Source: Henckelia pumila
Taxonomy: Eukaryota; Streptophyta; Magnoliopsida; Lamiales; Gesneriaceae
Assembly (NCBI RefSeq): GCF_033568475.1
Contig: NC_133122.1
Span: 180,191,449 to 180,255,448, forward strand
Reading direction: 5' to 3'
Length of the DNA stretch: 64,000 bases
A program made the translations under genes and the position numbers. Of the stretch, positions 53,713-64,000 are shown piece by piece. Each line of letters starts with the position of its first letter. Position 1 is the first letter of the stretch. The notes under the pieces were generated by a model that searched no databases, had not been told where the DNA came from, and saw only the letters and a list, made by a program, of their open reading frames with translations.

Positions 53713-54090
53713 TAAATAGAAATGTCCTCTACCGAGGTGGAAATGTGTGGAAAAAAAATTTAAATCTTTTTTTTTTATACACGCCTGCCATAATTGCGCG
53801 CGTGCACGTATCAATGTAACGGGTGGAATTCCACCGTTACATTGTTTTTTACTTTTTTTTTAATATTTTAAATTTTATTATTTAATGTGTATAAATATTT
53901 AATAATAATGGAAAAATTAGCCGTTGCCATTTTTTTTTGTTTTTTTTTGTAAAACTCCATCTATAAATATATTATTTTACCTTCCTCTTTTTCATAATTT
54001 TTCATATCATATTTTCTCCCTCCCATCTCATTTCACTTGCTTCAAAATGGCTGAAAATCCTAGTCAACAATACAAGAAAAAAGGCCAACA

Positions 54091-54550
54091 ACAACGCTTT
54101 TTCCGCGTTGTAGTTGTCCCTGAAAAAGCGTTGTCATAGGCAGTGTTGTAAAAGACCGCGGTCAAAGACAACGCGAAAAAACGTTGTGCTATTTGGAAAA
54201 GACAACGCTTAAAAAGCGTTGTGGTAGTTGAAAAAGACAATGCTTTAAAAAGCATTGTAGATTAATGCAATGACAACGCTTTAAAAGAGTTGTGGTATTT
54301 GGAAAACACAACGCTTAAAAAGCGTTGTAGATTAATGCAAGGACAACACTTTAAAAGCGTTGTGGTATTTGAAAAATACAACGCCTAAAAGCATTGTAGA
54401 TTGAGTAAAAGACAACGTTGAAACAGCGTTGTTGTTTCTAGAAATGACAACGCGTAAAAAGCATTGTAGATTGAAGCTAGGACAACGTTTTTTAAGTGTA
54501 AAAAAGCGTTGTGCTTTCTAGACATGGCTTAAAAAAGCATTGCGCTTCGT
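54091..54550. repeat. CACTA subterminal palindrome array
   Basis: Roughly a dozen units of 30-45 bp, each a small inverted repeat such as ACAACGCTT AAAA AGCGTTGT separated by spacers like GGTATTTGGAAA or AGATTAATGCAA. Unit sequence and spacing vary. Arrays of short subterminal repeats are usual in CACTA elements, where they bind the transposase. Confidence 0.8.
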
Positions 54551-55135
54551 TGTTAATTTGGGCGAAAATAATCAATAAAAAAATGTTGTTTTCGACTTTT
54601 TTTTGAAAATTTAAATGTCTATATAAATAACATCATTAAAATATATGAAAGTGCAAAGCCGTGGGGCGAAATATTCTCATAAAAAGTACAAGATATGCAC
54701 CCAAATCACACTAAAACACATTTCATACAGAAAATCTTGGTAAAATAAAATTTAATATACAATCGTCCAATATTATAAATCATTCAAATATAAAAAATAA
54801 TCGAATTCTAAATCAATGAACACTAGGAAAAAACTATGCATTAATATCGAAAAACTTTGATTATTCCCTTCAGCACATGTTCCCGAGCTTTCATAAAAGC
54901 CGCAACAATCTCATATCTTTTAATTCGTATCTCCATACTGTAAATTATTAAAAATAAAAACAAACAAACATAAAATAAATATGAATAGATCAAAATAAAA
55001 AATAAACTTAAAACACATATTTGGCAGCAAAGAACAGGAATTACGAATTACAAAATTCAAGCCACAAGTTGCTAAAAATGAATGGTTGAACAAGTTATAA
55101 TGGTTGAACAAATTACATTCCCAGTCGCAACCCCA
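54551..55135. other. AT-rich interior of the CACTA region
   Basis: No identifiable gene or repeat beyond AT-rich sequence. Confidence 0.5.
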
Positions 55136-55361
55136 TTACTTTATGCATTCAATAACAATGAAGCCAAGCAACTCGAAAACACATACTAAAATTTTCACTT
55201 CAAAAGCCAAATACAACAGAAGGAATTGAAGCTTCACACTTGTAACAGAAGAAATTGCGACACCTAAATTCAACACAACTATAATTAGAGCATCTAATTT
55301 AATAAAGAGAAATAAGCAGCAACCAATGGAGGACTCTACTGATAGCACAAAGAAGTGATAC

Positions 55362-55650
55362 CTGCATTTCATGACAGGGCAACCATCTATCCTCTCAACA
55401 TAGAACCTGCACTTTGGACACCTACTCCATTTCTTTTTCTTGGCCAGATTGGCCAGCATTATATCATCAAGAGTCCTCTCGCCACTTCTCAACTTTTGAA
55501 ACTCGGTGCACGTAGCCCCCGAATGCCAAGCAACCTTACACTCTGCGCAGAACAGCCTGTTACAATAAGGGCATTCGGATTCCATTATAACCTCATTCGT
55601 CCCACGCCGTTCGTCCACTAGCAAGGCCGAGCAATCCTTGAATGGGACAT
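55362..55650 (-). pseudogene. RBR-type E3 ubiquitin ligase fragment (IBR to RING2)
   Basis: One exon-like block on the - strand. It starts YVPFKDCSALLVDE, where the usual CPFKDCS has lost its first cysteine. The cysteine-rich IBR region CPYCNRLFCAECKVAWH follows, then the linker, then the start of RING2, CPKCRFYVERIDGC. It ends at a donor site (GCAG|GTATCA) exactly where plant ARI/RBR genes continue with the rest of RING2. The following ORF sequence is intron. RING1 and the C-terminus are absent, so it is a captured partial copy of an RBR gene, without ligase capacity by itself. Confidence 0.85.
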
Positions 55651-55872
55651 AAAGAAAAGATAACGTAGAGGTGATATTCAAATTACAGTTGAAGTATTAG
55701 GTACAAGTAAATAACAAAGGTGATATTGTCATACTTAACCCCATGTTATAATTTGATAATATAATTGGGAAGTCCACCCCTTCTCCCATGACGAAACACA
55801 AAGGAAGTTATCTGAAATAACTGAGATAAAAATTCACTACCTTGGATAATTATCCAGGTGATAATTCACTAC

Positions 55873-56109
55873 CTGAGAGACATGGTATTCAGGGCCATTA
55901 GTCAATAAGAAGGTGACAAATCCCCGTGATTCATCTGTCTCCTCTGTTGCCAATAAAACATATAACACAAACACATTACATGATAATCCAAAATTAAGAA
56001 GAAAAAAATATAGAGCTGAATTTATCTTCTACTAATGCAAAACAGGATTCTCCCAACAAGGCTTCAAGGTTAACCCATCCTCCTTCCAAGGTCCATCATC
56101 CCCTTTTTT
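55873..56109 (-). pseudogene. O-fucosyltransferase-like gene fragment, two exons
   Basis: The 5' block (56041-56109) translates to GDDGPWKEDGLTLKPCW. The second block (55873-55943) translates to ETDESRGFVTFLLTNGPEYH, then VSQ and a GT donor. These match my recollection of the start of the plant O-fucosyltransferase (DUF246/GT65R-like) domain, where the segment leads into a SQI-ADAV continuation. Both lie on the - strand and keep splice-like borders. The catalytic part is missing. Identity is inferred from memory of the family. Confidence 0.6.
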
Positions 56110-56173
56110 AAAACATTTTTTTGTAAAAAGCGTTGTCTTTTAACTGTTGTTAATGATCATTTTTGTTGTAGTG

Positions 56174-56254
56174 ATTCTAAAGCATAAAAATTAAAAATTT
56201 AGTGGAAAATCAAAATTCAAGGGTGCTTAGACGTACTTTATACAAGGATAACAT
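56174..56254. other. Spacer between CACTA terminus and solo LTR
   Basis: No recognisable feature; contains the first copy of the AACAT target site (56250-56254). Confidence 0.5.
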
Positions 56255-58096
56255 TGAAAGAGTGGGTGCCCGGTGAGCCAACTTGTGGCTAAGGGCTTTG
56301 ATGACTCTTTGTATAAACAATCTTTTGTTTAATATAATTTACATTTTTTATTAATGGCAATGACTTTATCTTTCTTCATATTGTTATATTGTGATATACT
56401 ATTGTTGTTTTGATAAAGACCTTGAATATACTATAGTGTATGTAAGATGTGGTAGCACATGGGGATGGCTATCATGAAACACATCTTATAGTCACTGTAT
56501 ATTCTAAACTGTTCCTAGTCGATTGAGCCGTCCGATAATAAGGATAAGGATCTCTCGAGTTTGAGACTAGCATTTGCGATGCAGAGTACCACGTTTCATT
56601 GGTAAGGAACATAGAGATGTTCAAAGCATGCAAATGGATATTCATACGATGAATGATCGAACTACCCTATTCGGACTTTCCAAGTGGTTATCACTTATCG
56701 AGTGGATAAAGTCCGCGGTTTTGGTTGTACACCATTAGTCCTTACTACTTGAAACATCATTGAGACTCTATATGCTAGTACTGTGCTTTGACTCGTTTAC
56801 CGACTCTATTGGGGTCATCAGGTGTCGGGATTGGGTACAGTTACAACACATATAGGAGTTGATGCTTTGTTGTCAAAGATTCACCACATACTTGCGAGTG
56901 TGGATATCCTATGCGATCTGAGGAGATATTAGTGTGACGAATCTCTGGCCAGAGTACATGATGTGTTTTAAGAAATGGTTTCTTAGTAGCACATGCGATG
57001 TCACTATTTGATCTTCAAGATGCATTGCATAGTTATCGAATCTCGAACGACTCTCGATTTACCAATGGTTGTTGATTCGATCGGGATATATGGATGAAGG
57101 GACCGTACTGTACGCTAACCAAAATCTATTGGTTCTTGCAGGCACTATCAGTGATACCTAGGGAATCATGGGGTGATGTTGCTAGGCGCTCTTACCATGA
57201 TTCGATGGGCAAGTCGGAAATTGTTGTTCCGAGTCACAAGGAGTTGTGAGCCCACGGCTAGCTGTATCCCTGAACCATTGAGGGTCACACAGAGTAATGG
57301 ATTTTTAATCCCCGTTGAGATAGTTAAATTTAAAGAGTTAAATTTAATGAACAAAGAAGTGGGACTTCTTATTTAAGAGTAGAGGAGTAAGATTTCCTAA
57401 AATGACATGGGGATGGGCATTTTTGGAAACCACTGAATTCGGATTCAGAAAATTTATCTTGACTTTAAAAGGTGCAGAAATGGTTTCTGTGAACATTGGT
57501 AAAATCGGTTTATCAATCAGAGTCACGATGAATTTTATATTAATTTCTGGACATGCGGGCTTTGCTTGTCAGACTTGAACTTATGACTAATGGGCCCTAA
57601 GCTGTTAGCGCCCTACATTATAAATAAGTTATTGCAGTACAGAAATTATACACAACAGGTCACAATTTTCGAAAAACCCTAGTTTTCTCTCTAACAGTGG
57701 CCGCCCCCCTCCCCTCTGCTCAGGAAAAATCCAGCCTGTGAATTTTGAATTACAGTTTGGTTTAACGGATCAAATTCGTTAATTCTCTTTGTAGAAACTT
57801 CTGATAGATTTTCTAGTGCAATCTATCAGAGGGATTAAATCTCTGTTCGTGGACCTGATTGAAGAACAGTTCGTCCATCAGTTCCTGGGAGATACAACAA
57901 GAGCCGAGCAATCTGTTGGTGTCCATAATCTCGATTCGAGATTGGAGGTAAAAATTTATAATTGTTATTTAATTTTTACACACACAATTTAATCGTAAAG
58001 TTTTGATACCCATTATGAAATCGTTCCATATAAAATTTTTAAATTTCCGCTGCACCGGGTATCAATTCTGATTGATCTGATCGCCGTTCTCCAACA
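56255..58096 (+). mobile_element. Solo LTR, 1.84 kb, with AACAT target duplication
   Basis: It starts TGAAAGAGTGGGTGCCC and ends CGTTCTCCAACA, flanked by exact AACAT copies (56250-56254 and 58097-58101). A promoter-like TATAAATAAG lies near 57620, followed about 60 bp on by AAACCCTAGTTTTCTCTC, as in an R/U5 start. There is no internal region or second LTR, so it is a recombination remnant. I cannot decide between Copia and Gypsy. Confidence 0.8.
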
Positions 58097-58101
58097 AACA
58101 T

Positions 58102-58767
58102 TAGTGCAGTAAAACTTGAACCATTATACTTTGGTAGCTAATTTAGATGCTTAAAATTATCAATGTATGTCCAGGGCATCTGCATACAAATATCTCAGAA
58201 AATTAAATATGGGTGAAAGTAGACCAAATTAAGGGTGAAAGTAGATCAAATTAAATATGGGTTTTGACCAGAAACCTCAGACAAATATCTCAGAAAATGA
58301 AAACAGAGTATCATTTCATTAAAAAGAATATGCAAAAATAGATTGAGCCTTACCGAAATATTTGGCAGAAGTTAAACAAATCATGATAGCAAATCGATGC
58401 ACAATCTGTACAAAAGAAAACCAAAACCAGAAAAAAAAAATTCAATTGTTCAAACCTAATTTCTATAAATAATTACTTTATCATCATACCTTACAAACAT
58501 CATGGATGAAAAAGAAGGAAAAACTAGAAAATTTGGCATTTGTAACAACTACTTTAAACATAAAAGATGTAAACAAAATAAATTTTAAAAAAAAATACTA
58601 GCAATAGACAACGGCGGAGAGGGCGGCAGGAAGGGGTATTTTGCTGGAGAGGAAGCACCTGTACTAGAGGTCGTTGAAAAAGGGGAGGAAGTACGTCGCA
58701 AAAGGTCAGAATTCTTGTAGTGGAAGTTGACTAGTGAACATGACCCTAAATAGCTTTTTGTACTAAC
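58102..58767. other. Non-coding spacer
   Basis: AT-rich, no identifiable exon. A frame at 58585-58848 on the - strand is the wrong-phase shadow of the DUF726-like exon. Confidence 0.5.
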
Positions 58768-58860
58768 CACCGAAGGAAGCTGTAACTGCAACAAAACCTG
58801 CAACACTTCTTGCAGCACTAGCAACAGCAGCGAACCCACTTGTGGCAATAGCTGGAGCAG
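58768..58860 (-). pseudogene. DUF726-like (TMCO4 family) exon fragment
   Basis: Between an AG acceptor (GGTTTAG) and a GT donor (GTTAGT) the - strand encodes AAPAIATSGFAAVASAARS followed by VAGFVAVTASFG. This Ala/Gly-rich hydrophobic stretch resembles the membrane-spanning part of DUF726 proteins (ASGFAA...AGSVAVAASFGAAGAGL). A single exon of about 31 codons. The low-complexity composition limits certainty. Confidence 0.5.
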
Positions 58861-59037
58861 CTAAACCTAGTAGATTATGAGGCACAAATAAATATAAAGT
58901 CCATAATATACATCCTGTTGATATCTGATTTCACCATAAAATTTCGTTTCTTTTCTTTTTACCCTGCCTAGTACCAAAGAAAAAATATGGTTGATACACA
59001 AGTCCAAAAAATTAATGAGTGATAAAGTTTTTATACC

Positions 59038-59157
59038 TCTAGTAATAGCCATCATGGTTTCTCCAGTTCGTGTAGCAACACCGATGATACCTCCACGTTT
59101 CCATGCACTTGGCCCACGAACTTTCTGGTGATCGCGTTTATTCTTTGGATTCCTCCT
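59038..59157 (-). pseudogene. Unidentified exon-like fragment
   Basis: A 120-nt block between AG and GT borders. It encodes KRRNPKNKRDHQKVRGPSAW followed by KRGGIIGVATRTGETMMAIT. I do not recognise the source. It lies in the chain of captured fragments and has the same orientation as its neighbours. Confidence 0.35.
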
Positions 59158-59304
59158 CTTTCAGAACAAACAAGAATTTTAATTTCTAAGCAAGAACCAC
59201 CACATGCATATTTAAGACTTGAGGGAATAAAGAATTGCATGACAAAAAATGAAAGTGAGCTGGCATAAGACATAAATCACAAGAAAAAAGAAACTTCATC
59301 CAAC

Positions 59305-59393
59305 ATTTAGATATAACCACCAGCGAACTTCCATTAGCTGCACCAGATATTGCACTGATGTAATAATCTCTCCTCTTGCTCCATGATCCAATC
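59305..59393 (-). pseudogene. Casein-kinase-1-like (HD16 type) exon fragment
   Basis: After an AG acceptor the - strand begins DWIMEQ, then after a small frameshift continues DYYISAISGAANGSSLVVIS. This matches the C-terminal region of plant casein-kinase-1-like proteins of the HD16/EL1 type, recalled as EWIMEQWEKN-YISSIAGANNG. The kinase domain is absent. It is too short for function. Confidence 0.65.
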
Positions 59394-59869
59394 CTAATAA
59401 GAACCAGGAAACATTAGATAGGAAACAAGGTCATGGCTCGCCAAAACATAGCTCCAAAATATGGGAAAAAAAACATTTTTATTTTATTTTTTGAAAATAA
59501 TAACATATAACTATACTCTCATTTCCCGAATCTAAACTGGCTCGAGCATGATCCGCCAAAACATGGCTCTATACACTTACCAGTCAGTAACTCTATCTCC
59601 TTTTCTCCCTGCCGAAAAATAAGTGACAAAACCAAATCAAGAATCTCCATATTCACAGCTCATTATCTTTTGCTAAATCCCACTTGACATTCTACACAAA
59701 TCTCTTTGTTTTAGCTACCTATGTTATTTTCAATTCTTGGTATAAAATCATGGAAGTCTCAATTTCGGGTATGTAGTTATAATATAAATTCCCACAAAAC
59801 ATTCAATTTCCTGAGCTTTGGTTATCAAGATTGAATTTTGCAACTATGGCTCAAGAAAGAGCACAAATC

Positions 59870-60022
59870 CTGGCATTTTTTGTGCTTAAAACTCCTGTTT
59901 CTTTGATTCTGAAACCAAAACTTAACATGTCTAGTCTCCAAGAAAAGTCTTATGCTAAGCTCCAATCTTTGGTTTTCATCAGGATGTGGACACTCCTTGA
60001 GAAGGTTGAAAAAAAAAAGCAA
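59870..60022 (-). pseudogene. HD-ZIP IV homeodomain fragment
   Basis: The - strand encodes [18 protein letters not shown], then [16 protein letters not shown]. This is helices 1-3 of a class IV HD-ZIP homeodomain (family form ECPHPDEKQRLELSRRLGLE...VKFWFQNRRT). The recognition helix is kept except R to Q in WFQNRR. The leucine zipper and START domain are missing, and the frame diverges after RN. Confidence 0.8.
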
Positions 60023-60113
60023 CAGTTATTGATCAACTGTGGTCCAAAGTTACCAATATCAACGATTAACCTGTGTAAAAAATACAAAATTCAGACTGCT
60101 TACCAGCTTTTTT

Positions 60114-60272
60114 TGCACCAAGGGAAGTGATCCAAGCAGTGTAGTATGTCCCTCTTGTGCTCAGCTCCTGCACGCTAAATCTGCACAAACCTTCGAGCAC
60201 TACAGTGTAGGTGACCCTGCCACTTGGTTCTCGACTCCTCTTGACAGATGTAAAGCTCGGGCAGCAACTCCC
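60114..60272 (-). pseudogene. LON2: Peroxisomal Lon protease (LON2) exon fragment
   Basis: A 159-nt block bounded by TTCTAG acceptor and GTAAGC donor. It encodes GVAARALHLSRGVE, then after a one- or two-base loss PSGRVTYTVVLEGLCRF and SVQELSTRGTYYTAWITSL. This is part of the N-terminal substrate-binding domain of plant LON2, whose form RGVAARALHLSRGVEKPSGR I recall well. The frameshift shows it is no longer coding. ATPase and protease domains are absent. Confidence 0.85.
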
Positions 60273-60388
60273 CTAGAAGAAAACCATCCTTTATAAGAAG
60301 TGATTTACTGAAGCCAAAAAAATTAATATCAATTTAATTTATAGATGAGATTGCAGATATTAGAACTTCAAATTTACAGCAAATCAAC

Positions 60389-60598
60389 CTCCTTTATTGG
60401 ATTTCCAGGCATTGGCATAAGAAAATCAGCAGGATAGGGGTAATCTGCCATAGCCAAGTAACTATAAGCAGACAACAACCATTCAGAGAGATAGTCAGCA
60501 CTATCTAGTTTCCTGCAAATGAAATTCTCATATCACACAAGTAGCTACCCAAATGATTAGACACAAGGCTAAGAAAATAATTTTTAAAAACATCTATA

Positions 60599-60638
<40 letters not shown>

Positions 60639-61870
60639 GAACTTGAAAGGAAGATGCACAGTTGTATACTCTTACCGGCAAAAACAGAAGGTTTCCAGCA
60701 AATGGGAAAGCCCATTATTTCTCTGTGCCTCGAGTTATATTACATCCCAACGTGTTTTTATGGTATTAAAGCAGCTGACACTTTCGCGCTGACATAATGA
60801 TCAATAAGCAAGGATTACTATACTGAAAAAACTCTTGTAAACTAGGAATTATATAAATAATAAGTTCAATATGAATGGAAAAACAGACTCTAAAATCATT
60901 AGAGACAATGTCATAAAATGTCTCTGGAGGCACAACATCCTCAAACTGAATAACTGGCGCTGAGGAAGCTAGCGATCCAATTGTAATGTATGGGTATTTG
61001 AGCCTCATCCATGCTGCCAGCACTGTCAAATATAATCTAATAAACGTTTGTCTCAAAACTTACTAAGCTTCTTAATATCGACACAAAATTGGATTTTCGA
61101 TCAAGCTAACACCCGAAAGATTTTCTTACTTCCTCCATATGATCCACCAAAAAGCACAACAGGACAATCCTGAGCAGACAAGTTTCTTTTCAGCTCAGTA
61201 ATCAATATAGCAAAAGTAGCAAGAGCTTGCTCAGTTGTTAAAAGTGATAATGTGCTAGCATTCTTGTACATCTCCTCTTGATTTCCATACGGCATCGGCT
61301 CCCCGTAGTACCTATGCTGTCATGCAACACTCACATCGTTTAAGTGCACTGTAATCGGAAATAACTGTTCAAAAAACATTCCATCGTATTCTAAAACACT
61401 TAAAATTTCCAGCCAACTCTCCCAAGAACAAAGAATATACCAAAAATATCATGTGGCCCGAACTAAAAGTGTTGCGGATCACATTCTTACAAAACAGATG
61501 CATGTGCGCCAGAATGCAGGGGGATAAGGGGCGACTAAATAAAATTAGGGACAAATTTATTTCCAGCTAAATAAATAACGGCATAAAAAAAATATATTAA
61601 TTCAGGGAAGATAACCATGGCGCCAAAACGAGGAGCGAGCTCCCAAACGAGGCCTGTATTGGCGGCGAACCACTCAATGTCACCTTTGTCCCTGCAATAC
61701 AGGAAGATTGGTCCCATTAGGTCAGGGCCCGCCCAATGCTCGGTGCTGATGAGATAACGTTGACGAAAAGTTTGGAGCTCGGAAAAGATGAAGTGATCAA
61801 GAATCTGATCGAAGTATCGACTTTCGTACTGGTACTGTGGAGCTACGAGGATCCCGTTACTTTTCAATGT
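60389..61870 (-). pseudogene. S28 Pro-X carboxypeptidase gene fragment, five exons
   Basis: The 5'-most exon starts at 61870; its 3' border, near 61606, is approximate. The later exons are 61316-61130, 61022-60889, 60788-60676 and 60512-60389. They encode the start of the mature enzyme (QYQYESRYFDQILDHF), then HRYYGEPMPYGNQEEMYKNA and the nucleophile motif GGSYGG joined across an intron to MLAAWMRLKYP. SLASSAPVIQFEDVVPPETF and the cap region [20 protein letters not shown] follow. Lysosomal/vacuolar Pro-X carboxypeptidases remove residues after proline. Signal peptide, catalytic Asp/His region and C-terminus are missing. A TAA interrupts the fourth exon (about 60730-60735). It is followed within about 120 bp by the LON2 exon, so it is a fragment, not a gene. 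Confidence 0.88.
60599..60638. repeat. (AT)n microsatellite
   Basis: About 18 AT units inside an intron-like segment of the carboxypeptidase fragment. Confidence 0.93.
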
Positions 61871-61927
61871 CTGAAATATCACTTCTTTCAGCCTTCTCCA
61901 CAATAACCTACACCAGAATACCAACAA

Positions 61928-62577
61928 AAATAATATTATGACAAGCAGACATCAAGGGCCGGACCAAGAATCTAAATAACATGGAATTCATGAATTTAGA
62001 GGCGAAAATTATATTATGTGACAAACAAGATATTAAATCTAGAATTTATTTTGCCTATAGTCCCGCGATAGAAGAATCCCCAAATTTCACAGAAAATTGA
62101 CCAATTCATACCGGAATTCTCCCATGTGTTTCTTGTTCTACTTATTGCATTAGCTCGAATATTTACTCGATATATATATATACATACAAATACATACATA
62201 CATATATAAAATTAATAATCAGTTTATTAAGATTTAAAAAAATTATAAAAACATTAAATTATTGAATACATTGTGAAGGCTATTTAAGTCATTAAACTAG
62301 TGGCTAACAGCTCATTTACCGAGGGGCATGTATGTATGTACGCCTAGTTCAATCATTTCGTTCAGAAAAGCTCATATGGTAAGCTAAAGACAACTTGTAA
62401 TAGATGTCAATCCGCAACTGTCTAGATAATTACGTTCAGAAAAGCTCAAAAATTTATAAAATTGAATACCCCAAGATCATAAGCATCATAAGCAATCCAA
62501 GTCTGTTTTCTGAGCCCGAATTCACTCACACTGTACCCCAAGATGGGGTTTCCCAGCAAAAAAAAAAATCCCCAAGA
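61928..62577. other. Spacer, no gene seen
   Basis: AT-rich with a short TATATA/ACATACAT run near 62170-62205. No signal-peptide exon for the carboxypeptidase is visible here. Confidence 0.5.
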
Positions 62578-63109
62578 TCATACATAAGCAGGTGAGAGCA
62601 GAGTAATGTCGGCGAGACATGCCACAGCCAAGTACAGGAAAGCCACCACTTGTTTGAAGGAGTTTATTTTGAAGAAATTCTGAAAAAGAACAATGCCCAG
62701 CAACCCAACTGCAAATTCTATCGATTTCTTTATCTTATAATCACTGTAACTGTTAGCAGCATCACCAAAATTAGAGATTACTCTCATTTCACGTTAGCAC
62801 GTTAGCCATACCAGTAAGGAAAATTAGCAAGACCAAGCTCGCTACAAGGAAATCATCAATCCTCAAGATAGATCTACAGATTTAATTAATTTAATCCCAC
62901 TACACAAATTTGTTCTTGAAAATCAATTATAAGAAAACATATTTCACAGAAATCTAGAGCTGTAAGGACATCGATTACCTCTCCTCTCTTGCCATTTCTA
63001 CAAGTGCCTTAAACTTGGAAGAGTTCTCCACATAAAGCTTCTTCTCCAGCTTCATCTTCCTCTGGAGTGCCTCTTTGAGAGGACTGTTGGTAATCTCGTT
63101 CACAGTCAT
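62578..63109 (-). CDS. Small two-exon protein, 111 aa, unidentified
   Basis: Exon 1 (63109-62979) and exon 2 (62782-62578) join in frame at GT-AG borders and give 336 nt with a stop. The N-terminal half is charged and helical (LKEALQRKMKLEKKLYVENS). The C-terminal half has one or two hydrophobic segments (SIEFAVGLLGIVLF and VVAFLYLAVACLADITLL), suggesting a small membrane protein. The frame is also open upstream from an ATG at 63262 except for a TAG just before YTAIPFM. The source protein may therefore have been longer and this copy truncated. It lies at the 5' end of the captured-fragment chain and might provide the start of a chimeric transcript. No family recognised. Confidence 0.45.
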
Positions 63110-63775
63110 AAATGGAATCGCCGTGTACTACCTCAGTGGCCCGACGACTAAAATCAATTTCCCGGACGAGAACATCTGTTGCAGGCTTAAAAACCTCTCT
63201 GCGAAAATCGATTTCCCAGAAGAAGGCGGCGAAGGGGGGAGCCAGATTCGACGCCGTTCCATACACACACTGGCCGCCGCCTCCGCCAACCCCCTCCTCA
63301 ACAGATTGATCTAAACAAAAGGCTGGAGTCGGAAGACGAGTTGGGACTAGGTTTTGTACGGGATGTGATTTGGGGTTTTTCCATCGATACATCTTTTTTT
63401 AAAAACACAGACAGGATTACTGTTGTATCAGAGAAAACCATAAATTGATCTTTTTCTTAGGGTTCGAAGAAGAGGAGATCCATATAAATCGATTGATTCC
63501 TAAACTATCGCTCGAAATCTCCATTGTATCGCGTCGTAAACGTTCTTGAAAGGTAATCCATCTGTGAAGAATCTATTCAACTAATATGTGAAGAATCTGT
63601 GAGCAAGAGCAGCAAAAATCGACGATGGAAAAGCATATTTGGAATCGAAAGAGAGAAAAAGCAGAGGGGGAGAAATCGTGAAGGATTTGGGGATTTTGGG
63701 TTTATTTTTACAAACGTTAAAGGTAAGGTGTAATATTATTTATTTAAAGTTTTAATTTAAAAATAATAATTCATC
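63110..63775 (-). promoter_or_regulatory. Possible 5' leader/promoter of the 111-aa frame
   Basis: A GC-richer block (63150-63320) and purine-rich sequence up to about 63720 look like 5' UTR and first-exon sequence, in contrast to the AT-rich flanks. No firm TATA box. Assignment is by position only. Confidence 0.3.
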
Positions 63776-64000
63776 TACAACGCCTTTTAAAAAATGTCGT
63801 TATACATAATAAAAAAATGCTCATAGACAACGCTTTTAAAAAGCGTTGTCTTTGACCTAAAAAAACGCTTATAGACAACGCTTTTTAAAAAAAACGTTGT
63901 CTTTGATGAATATAAAATATATAAAGACAACGCTTTTCACTAAAAGCGTTGTAGTTTAAAAAAAGACAACGCTTTTTACAAAAAGCGTTGTCTTTTAAGT
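63776..64000. repeat. CACTA subterminal palindrome array, continues past the window
   Basis: At least five units such as ACAACGCTTTTAAAAAGCGTTGT split by short spacers, the same motif as in 54091-54550. No terminus with CACTACAA lies to its left. It is therefore probably the right arm of an element extending leftward, with its end beyond base 64000. Confidence 0.75.

Follow-up and report, generated by a model that had tools for sequence, protein, structure and literature searches.

A composite Pack-CACTA element of Henckelia pumila carries pieces of about eight or more host genes and keeps an inner right end

Introduction

The capture of host gene pieces by CACTA transposons is established in soybean, Ipomoea, wheat, Arabidopsis, and maize (PMC1947982, PMC5105172, PMC4290129, PMC8903248), and for Pack-TYPE elements a growth model has been put forward in which neighbouring insertions are mobilised together by their outer ends and the inner ends are lost by deletion or mutation (PMC8903248). 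Here we describe a Pack-CACTA element, called W, in a 64,000-nucleotide stretch of the Henckelia pumila genome (the window; G000:C3:180191449-180255448), compared with the 885 Mb of that genome, in 133 contigs. Some eight or more unrelated host genes are represented by pieces in W, which also still has a CACTA right end in its interior.

W is of a kind already known; it is richly loaded and its seam is unusually legible. It resembles the Pack-CACTAs of Arabidopsis and of the rice and maize survey, which has multi-locus elements from maize, in its CACTA ends, target copies, and host pieces, and growth by re-mobilised neighbours was proposed there too; unlike the elements as that survey describes them, W has eight named donors in ~8.1 kb and has kept an inner right end whose target is element-free elsewhere (PMC8903248). 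Soybean Tgm-Express1 is likewise a CACTA element with several unrelated host fragments that include exons and introns, but its published account gives five gene fragments in 5.7 kb and shows spliced chimeric transcripts, whereas W is known from sequence alone (PMC1947982). By description, and in another species, W is also like the Tpn1 family of Ipomoea nil, which are non-autonomous CACTA elements with conserved ends and captured host DNA (PMC5105172). Gene capture is reported for the CACTA elements of wheat chromosome 3B as well, where the same gene was taken by different CACTAs; set against these, the S28 serine carboxypeptidase cargo of W looks neutral (PMC4290129). The gene-carrying Helitrons of maize hold up to nine gene fragments, and read-through to a downstream end has been proposed for them, but they are rolling-circle elements, whereas W has 3-base target copies and CACTA ends (PMC6431247). 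An initial annotation, made from the letters of the window, had called the number of sources unusual; this rarity was somewhat overrated in view of the elements described in these reports (PMC1947982, PMC8903248, PMC6431247). Our literature search, whose range left supplementary tables and most subscription journals outside, gave no CACTA element with more named donors, and we claim no record.

Results

Limits of the element and its copies

The DNA from 54068 to 64028 is one non-autonomous CACTA element of 9961 bases, or ~8.1 kb without a solo long terminal repeat (LTR) that was inserted later (Table 1). Its terminal inverted repeats are CAATACAAG on the left, which is one base off, and TTGTTGTAGTG on the right; the latter lies at 64018-64028 in the fetched right flank and is followed by CAA, which also stands before the left end. 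Subterminal ACAACGC/GCGTTGT arrays are present at both ends, with 14 units at 54091-54512 and 8 units at 63777-63991. The initial annotation had placed the start at the exact base, had noticed the arrays on both sides, and had predicted a right terminus with a CAA target copy beyond the window, which is found at 64018-64031. Its proposal of multi-gene capture by a CACTA element is supported by the termini, the target copies, the presence at three loci, and the parents elsewhere in the genome. When the flanks of W are joined at CAA, the empty site reads through in a 200-codon open frame, and the frame that follows downstream has matches to Plant_tran (E 4.8e-75) and DDE_Tnp_4. We conclude that W inserted into a PIF/Harbinger-type transposase gene (window 54047-54067 and L009:29-1311) and that its edges are firm.

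Three contigs each have the composite at one locus, with its pieces in unchanged order: W, copy A (C4), and copy B (C2). It has moved as a unit, since A and B lie on other contigs and A has its own target copy. A search with 63000-64000 gave long matches at C4:178603829 (95%), C2:45102050 (94%), and C3:154278638 (90%), as well as at least 36 further places with the right-end part only (80-88%), all among the best 40 of 1502. Copy A is complete, with 9920 bases, CACTACAAG and ATTGTAGTG as its inverted repeats, and TGT on both sides. In matches of at least 60 bases it is 95.5-97% identical to W over long blocks and 90.6%, with many gaps, over 54068-55776. Copy B matches 54644-64028 at 95-97%; its left end was not seen in the 13.7 kb fetched upstream, and the DNA to the left of the match is gypsy-like, as read by eye from the letters. 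The C3:154278638 locus holds 62696-64028 only (92%). The 3-base target duplications are CAA for W and TGT for A, and copy B and the C3:154278638 locus were viewed on the right side only.

An inner right end

Within W, TTGTTGTAGTG occurs a second time at 56163-56173, in the orientation of the outer right end, and it does so in A and B as well. The 69 bases from ~56105 to 56173 have at least 28 other matches of 91-96%, all of which end 0-11 bases from 56173 and 11 of which end exactly there (among the best 40 of 449). On the far side of this border, matches at three other places have 56174 as their first base, and those at three further places start 9-16 bases later (77-81%; again among the best 40 of 449). 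At the first three of these places (L049, L050, and L051) the same target DNA carries on to the left, uninterrupted by an element, through the 232, 79, and 102 bases fetched, and the DNA there reads ...ATCATCAAA then ATTCTAAAGC... or a close variant of it. Because the target DNA runs element-free at these three loci, we read 56173/56174 as a CACTA insertion joint with the target copy ATT. The fragment to the left of the inner end (55906-56104) is found elsewhere ~0.7 kb upstream of a like right end on the same strand (C3:186304698 and C3:186303894). It may therefore be the interior of the element to which the inner end belonged, which fits both fusion of two elements and nesting of one in the other.

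Siblings and exchanged back halves

Two related elements lack the inner end. Sibling G (L041, C4) comprises the RBR E3 ligase piece (55394-55905), the block 58246-59595, pieces of isocitrate dehydrogenase (Iso_dh, E 1.6e-18 and 6e-14), and a right end; in it, RBR is joined to the 58246 block at a 4-base TCAA overlap. By coordinates, H (C3:99617310-99620729) has the same joint and 58246-58665, without ~58666-59595, and its back half is 98% identical to that of G. At C3:18899794 the isocitrate dehydrogenase DNA is matched contiguously (96%; among the best 40 of 161), the right-end part being absent, and to judge by this match the locus is the likely parent of these pieces. The divergence between W and G is 3.3% in 58246-59595 and 4.2% in RBR, compared with 2.9% between W and A in 58246-59595, and the right ends of G, A, and B diverge from that of W by 9.7%, 3.2%, and 4.6%. 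Given that the front of G is close to W and its right end is distant, we infer that back halves were exchanged and that the two parts seemingly have different histories. G still matches W through the first 28 bases of the LysM piece and diverges only then; it thus probably split off after this piece had been joined.

Judging from the loci compared, pieces of the family circulate in differing arrangements among related elements. One locus combines a left end with an S28 piece that reaches further into the gene than that of W (L040), another a left end with an S28 piece in the opposite orientation (L034), a third has left-body DNA adjoining 62613-62956 (L044), and a fourth holds 62819-63405 near right-end DNA (L046); the S28 gene is found in at least three arrangements among elements of the family. 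The RBR DNA (54737-55647) is also found at no fewer than six other loci, with 90-96% identity along most of it (among the best 40 of 1179). Two S28-carrying loci 82 kb apart (L036/L037; C4:47454262 and C4:47371972) are 99.6% identical over 3.7 kb and represent a recent local duplication.

Captured gene pieces and their parents

The eight named donors are RBR, DUF726-like, HD16-like, LysM, HD-ZIP IV, LON, S28, and ATG8, and there are further pieces without a name. For S28, LON, ATG8, and LysM, parent loci that look like genes to judge by their exons were read at 92-96% identity, non-coding parts included. Introns are present in the pieces, so DNA, not mRNA, was captured. The S28 piece is supported by Pfam (E 2e-8, 6e-11, and 5e-10) and by solved structures (E 1e-15), and its parent (L032), shown by DNA comparison with matches of at least 50 bases, has exons before and after the captured part. 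The homeobox matches Pfam at E 1.3e-9, its closest solved chain being PROTODERMAL FACTOR 2 (E 6e-10). The LysM parent (L043) contains LysM3_LYK4_5 (E 6e-7) and LysM (E 9e-6), and the exon of the ATG8 parent (L045) matches ATG8 chains (E 2.4e-5). The LON piece, which we take to be from LON2, matches Pfam at E 5e-4, below the family cut-off; its parent (L042) matches LON_substr_bdg just below the cut-off (E 2e-6) and has further LON-like exons as judged by eye. Against solved structures, this piece hit designed PPR proteins to E 3e-11 with no single stretch passing, and we judged these hits spurious. The RBR frame is still open, which says little on its own.

The block shared with the siblings contains a piece at ~59320-59413, presumably from HD16, that matches DUF7477 (E 6.5e-5, below the family cut-off) and had no convincing match among solved structures (best E 0.25). 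Its exons at 58763-58900 and 59052-59160 we tentatively take to be DUF726-like; Pfam gave no DUF726 match in the frames scanned. A stretch covering HD16-like and DUF726-like DNA (59012-59433) is nearly whole at at least 15 further places (82-92%) and partial at at least 12 (among the best 40 of 82). Because this pairing recurs across the genome, it is either a chimera that arose earlier and was amplified or a single gene region.

Much of the initial annotation of the cargo thus stands: it had listed partial RBR, homeobox, S28, LON, and HD16-type pieces, all of which have the Pfam matches given above or in Table 1, had noted stops in the pieces (e.g., one in frame in S28 exon 4, near 60736), and had expected parent genes elsewhere. 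It had named full-length genes at the locus, or the lack of better-matching parents elsewhere, as results that would refute it; neither was observed, since the frames of this locus are incomplete and the four examined parents lie elsewhere. The common orientation that it described holds for the seven named pieces on the - strand, but not for LysM (59568-59901), which is on the + strand. Several pieces were said to end exactly at splice sites, which does not hold: the S28 piece is truncated within exon 1 and within an intron. An O-fucosyltransferase-like piece, for which no coordinates had been given, received no Pfam support in the frames scanned (maximum E 10), and the DUF726-like label stays tentative. 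Absent from that annotation were ATG8, LysM, the inner CACTA end, and the 1842-base solo LTR.

The S28 cargo shows about equal divergence in exons and introns (exon limits approximate, from frames). Between W and A there are 26 differences in 833 exon bases and 25 in 722 intron bases, and between W and B 25/833 and 20/718; between A and B, where exons have more, the values are 27/833 and 15/718. Relative to the parent, exons and introns differ by 45/833 and 41/727 in W, 48/833 and 39/719 in A, and 49/833 and 36/715 in B. Since the two classes diverge about equally, S28 appears to be neutral passenger DNA. From this comparison, which was made for S28 only, the cargo looks like neutral genomic DNA with no working gene.

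Joints, unnamed pieces, and later insertions

No ACAACGC/GCGTTGT units lie between the LysM, homeobox, LON, S28, and ATG8 pieces, which abut closely. The LON/S28 joint has zero shared bases and one extra base, and the S28/ATG8 joint a few imperfect shared bases; the LysM-to-ATG8 stretch may stem from templated break repair or from earlier fusions whose ends were erased. The unnamed pieces within 62208-63480 each have their own set of genomic relatives. They include a first-exon-like frame at 62975-63112 and a frame at 62578-62793 with a weak match to BT1 (E 0.017, below the cut-off). Relatives of 62819-63490 at C3:24651674, C3:24672984, and C3:24694286 form a tandem array with ~21.3 kb spacing (37 of 37 candidates scored).

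A candidate for a second, inverted inner end at 58712-58722 (TTCTTGTAGTG, the complement of the left terminus) lacks subterminal repeats and was taken as a chance occurrence, which is unproven; TTCTTGTAGTG is also in B and is changed in G, and A was not matched by the anchor used. Several relatives begin at 58723, directly after it (among the best 40 of 82), by chance or as the trace of a worn inverted end.

The solo LTR (TG...CA) is unique to W and missing from A and B. DNA related to it is found twice in C4:196342001-196352000 and once beside copy A. Copy A (L012/L013) has its own ~2-kb insertion at the equivalent of window position 60270, with TG...CA ends and the target copy CCCCT, which is probably another LTR.

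No transposase domain was found in the 20 distinct W frames scanned (of 68 frames of at least 50 codons), and none of the best 150 of 570 Transposase_21 candidates of the genome lies inside W. No Transposase_21 place was paired with the ends of W, among the few compared by eye and with no systematic pairing made. Genome-wide there are at least 150 Transposase_21 matches, of which many lie in open frames of 500-868 codons; CACTA elements are abundant and may be recent or active. Helitrons insert between A and T without a target duplication, and Pack-MULEs have a target duplication of 8-10 bases and long Mutator-type ends; the 3-base duplications rule out a Helitron and, together with the CACTA ends, a Pack-MULE.

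Table 1. Features of W and its surroundings (window positions).
Feature	Position	Strand	Remarks
Whole composite Pack-CACTA (W)	54068..64028	+	last 28 bases past the window (L009); same unit in copies A and B
Left target copy CAA	54065..54067		right copy CAA at 64029-64031 (L009:29-31)
Left terminus CAATACAAGAAAAAAGG and subterminal palindrome array	54068..54560	+	terminus in copy A: CACTACAAG
Family body adjoining left end	54737..55162		many genomic copies, ~86-89%
RBR E3 ligase fragment	55311..55905	-	IBR in frame 55136-55696, E 2e-11; also in siblings G and H
Segment shared by W and G, absent from A and B	55777..55894		118 bases
Unnamed fragment	55906..56104		left edge provisional; also at C3:186304698 and C2:30495322 (96%; among the best 40 of 449)
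Inner CACTA right end	56105..56173	+	terminal 11 bases intact, a single GCGTTGT unit; shared by A and B
Target DNA of inner end	56174..56249, continues 58102-58245		starts with target copy ATT
Solo LTR, later insertion	56255..58096		1842 bases; target copies AACAT at 56250-56254 and 58097-58101
Block shared with sibling G	58246..59595	-	94%; H holds 58246-58665; DUF726-like exons and HD16-like piece
LysM gene (LYK4/5 type), 5' untranslated region with start codon	59568..59901	+	parent L043, 92%
HD-ZIP IV homeobox fragment (PROTODERMAL FACTOR 2 type)	59902..60017	-	edges inferred from neighbours
LON-type protease fragment, exon and intron DNA	60018..60288	-	parent L042, 96%
S28 serine carboxypeptidase fragment, from within exon 1 across several introns and exons	60290..61864	-	parent L032, 93.5%
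ATG8 fragment (exon VIVEKAERSDI...) and adjoining non-coding DNA	61857..62120	-	parent L045, 92%
Several unnamed pieces	62208..63480	- (from frames only)	62208-62359, 62478-62778, 62613-62956, 62819-63480
Right subterminal array and right terminus TTGTTGTAGTG	63590..64028	+	

Discussion

We read W as a non-autonomous Pack-CACTA composite formed by the fusion of neighbouring elements, in which an inner end was left as a fossil, and put the probability of this at roughly 0.6. A smaller, RBR-carrying element, reaching from the left end to 56173, would have inserted in a stretch that contained DUF726-like DNA and was itself part of, or next to, a further member of the family. With CACTA transposase provided in trans, the left end of the first element would have been used together with the right end of the second, and both would then have travelled as one, with the right end of the first staying inside. 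W, A, and B would correspond to the fused state in which the inner end is still present, and G and H to a state after its loss, with a different back half. In keeping with fusion, a CACTA right end abuts DNA that runs element-free at three other loci. Several points weigh on the other side. We found no independent copy of the first element, spanning from the left end to the inner right end, and no left end of the second element within W. As the target flank is repetitive DNA, more than one place may represent the original target. The inner end has one GCGTTGT unit, against eight at the outer right end, and for this reason may have been weak already. The left end of G lies outside the fetched stretch and its target copies were not seen, parents are shown for four of the eight named donors (RBR, DUF726-like, HD16-like, and homeobox being without one), and each DNA search of the genome scored at most 40 places, so further copies may exist.

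The same joint, with the inner end and its flank, would also arise if a single Pack-CACTA had held both RBR and DUF726-like DNA and a nested CACTA had inserted at ATT, its left part later being deleted and the inner end remaining as debris. G and H, which join RBR directly to the 58246 block, suit this course of events, and deletions do occur here, as A and B are without 55777-55894; yet it needs an insertion plus a deletion that removed both the left end of the inner element and its left target flank, and we consider it rather unlikely, if a serious contender. Abortive gap repair with template switching was reportedly proposed by Rubin and Levy in 1997. Their work is cited for the gap-repair mechanism in PMC8978399, and all captures in W might have arisen by such templated repair after excision, with no fusion of elements. 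The kept introns mean that the template was DNA, and the LON/S28 and S28/ATG8 joints resemble repair joints; repair may well hold for the LysM-to-ATG8 stretch, but as an account of the whole element we think it improbable, because it leaves unexplained a CACTA right end abutting DNA that is uninterrupted elsewhere. That there is no element at all, and that the short, broken pieces are a pseudogene cluster or an assembly artefact, is scarcely credible in the face of an order shared by three loci, each on its own contig, target copies at two of them, and flanks that join into an open frame.

Carrying the fusion reading further, W, A, and B might be natural intermediates in a growth cycle of Pack-CACTAs, moving as fused pairs even though the terminal 11 bases of the inner right end are intact, and G and H the next step, in which the inner end was lost and the back half replaced. 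The family would then act as a modular assembler that reuses donors and whose transposase passes over an inner end in favour of an outer one. This extension is tentative, the more so as the inner end, with its single subterminal unit, may have been weak, and we would not bet on it at even odds.

The pieces of LON, ATG8, LysM, and S28 could in principle give rise to chimeric transcripts or to small RNAs directed against their parents. For Pack-TYPE elements in general, the capture route is still largely inferred, and W preserves a hint of the way in which bundles of this sort may come about. One genome seems to show several of the steps side by side, namely an inner end with its target intact elsewhere, siblings without the inner end, different back halves, and parents, and the fusion model can therefore be checked by sequence.

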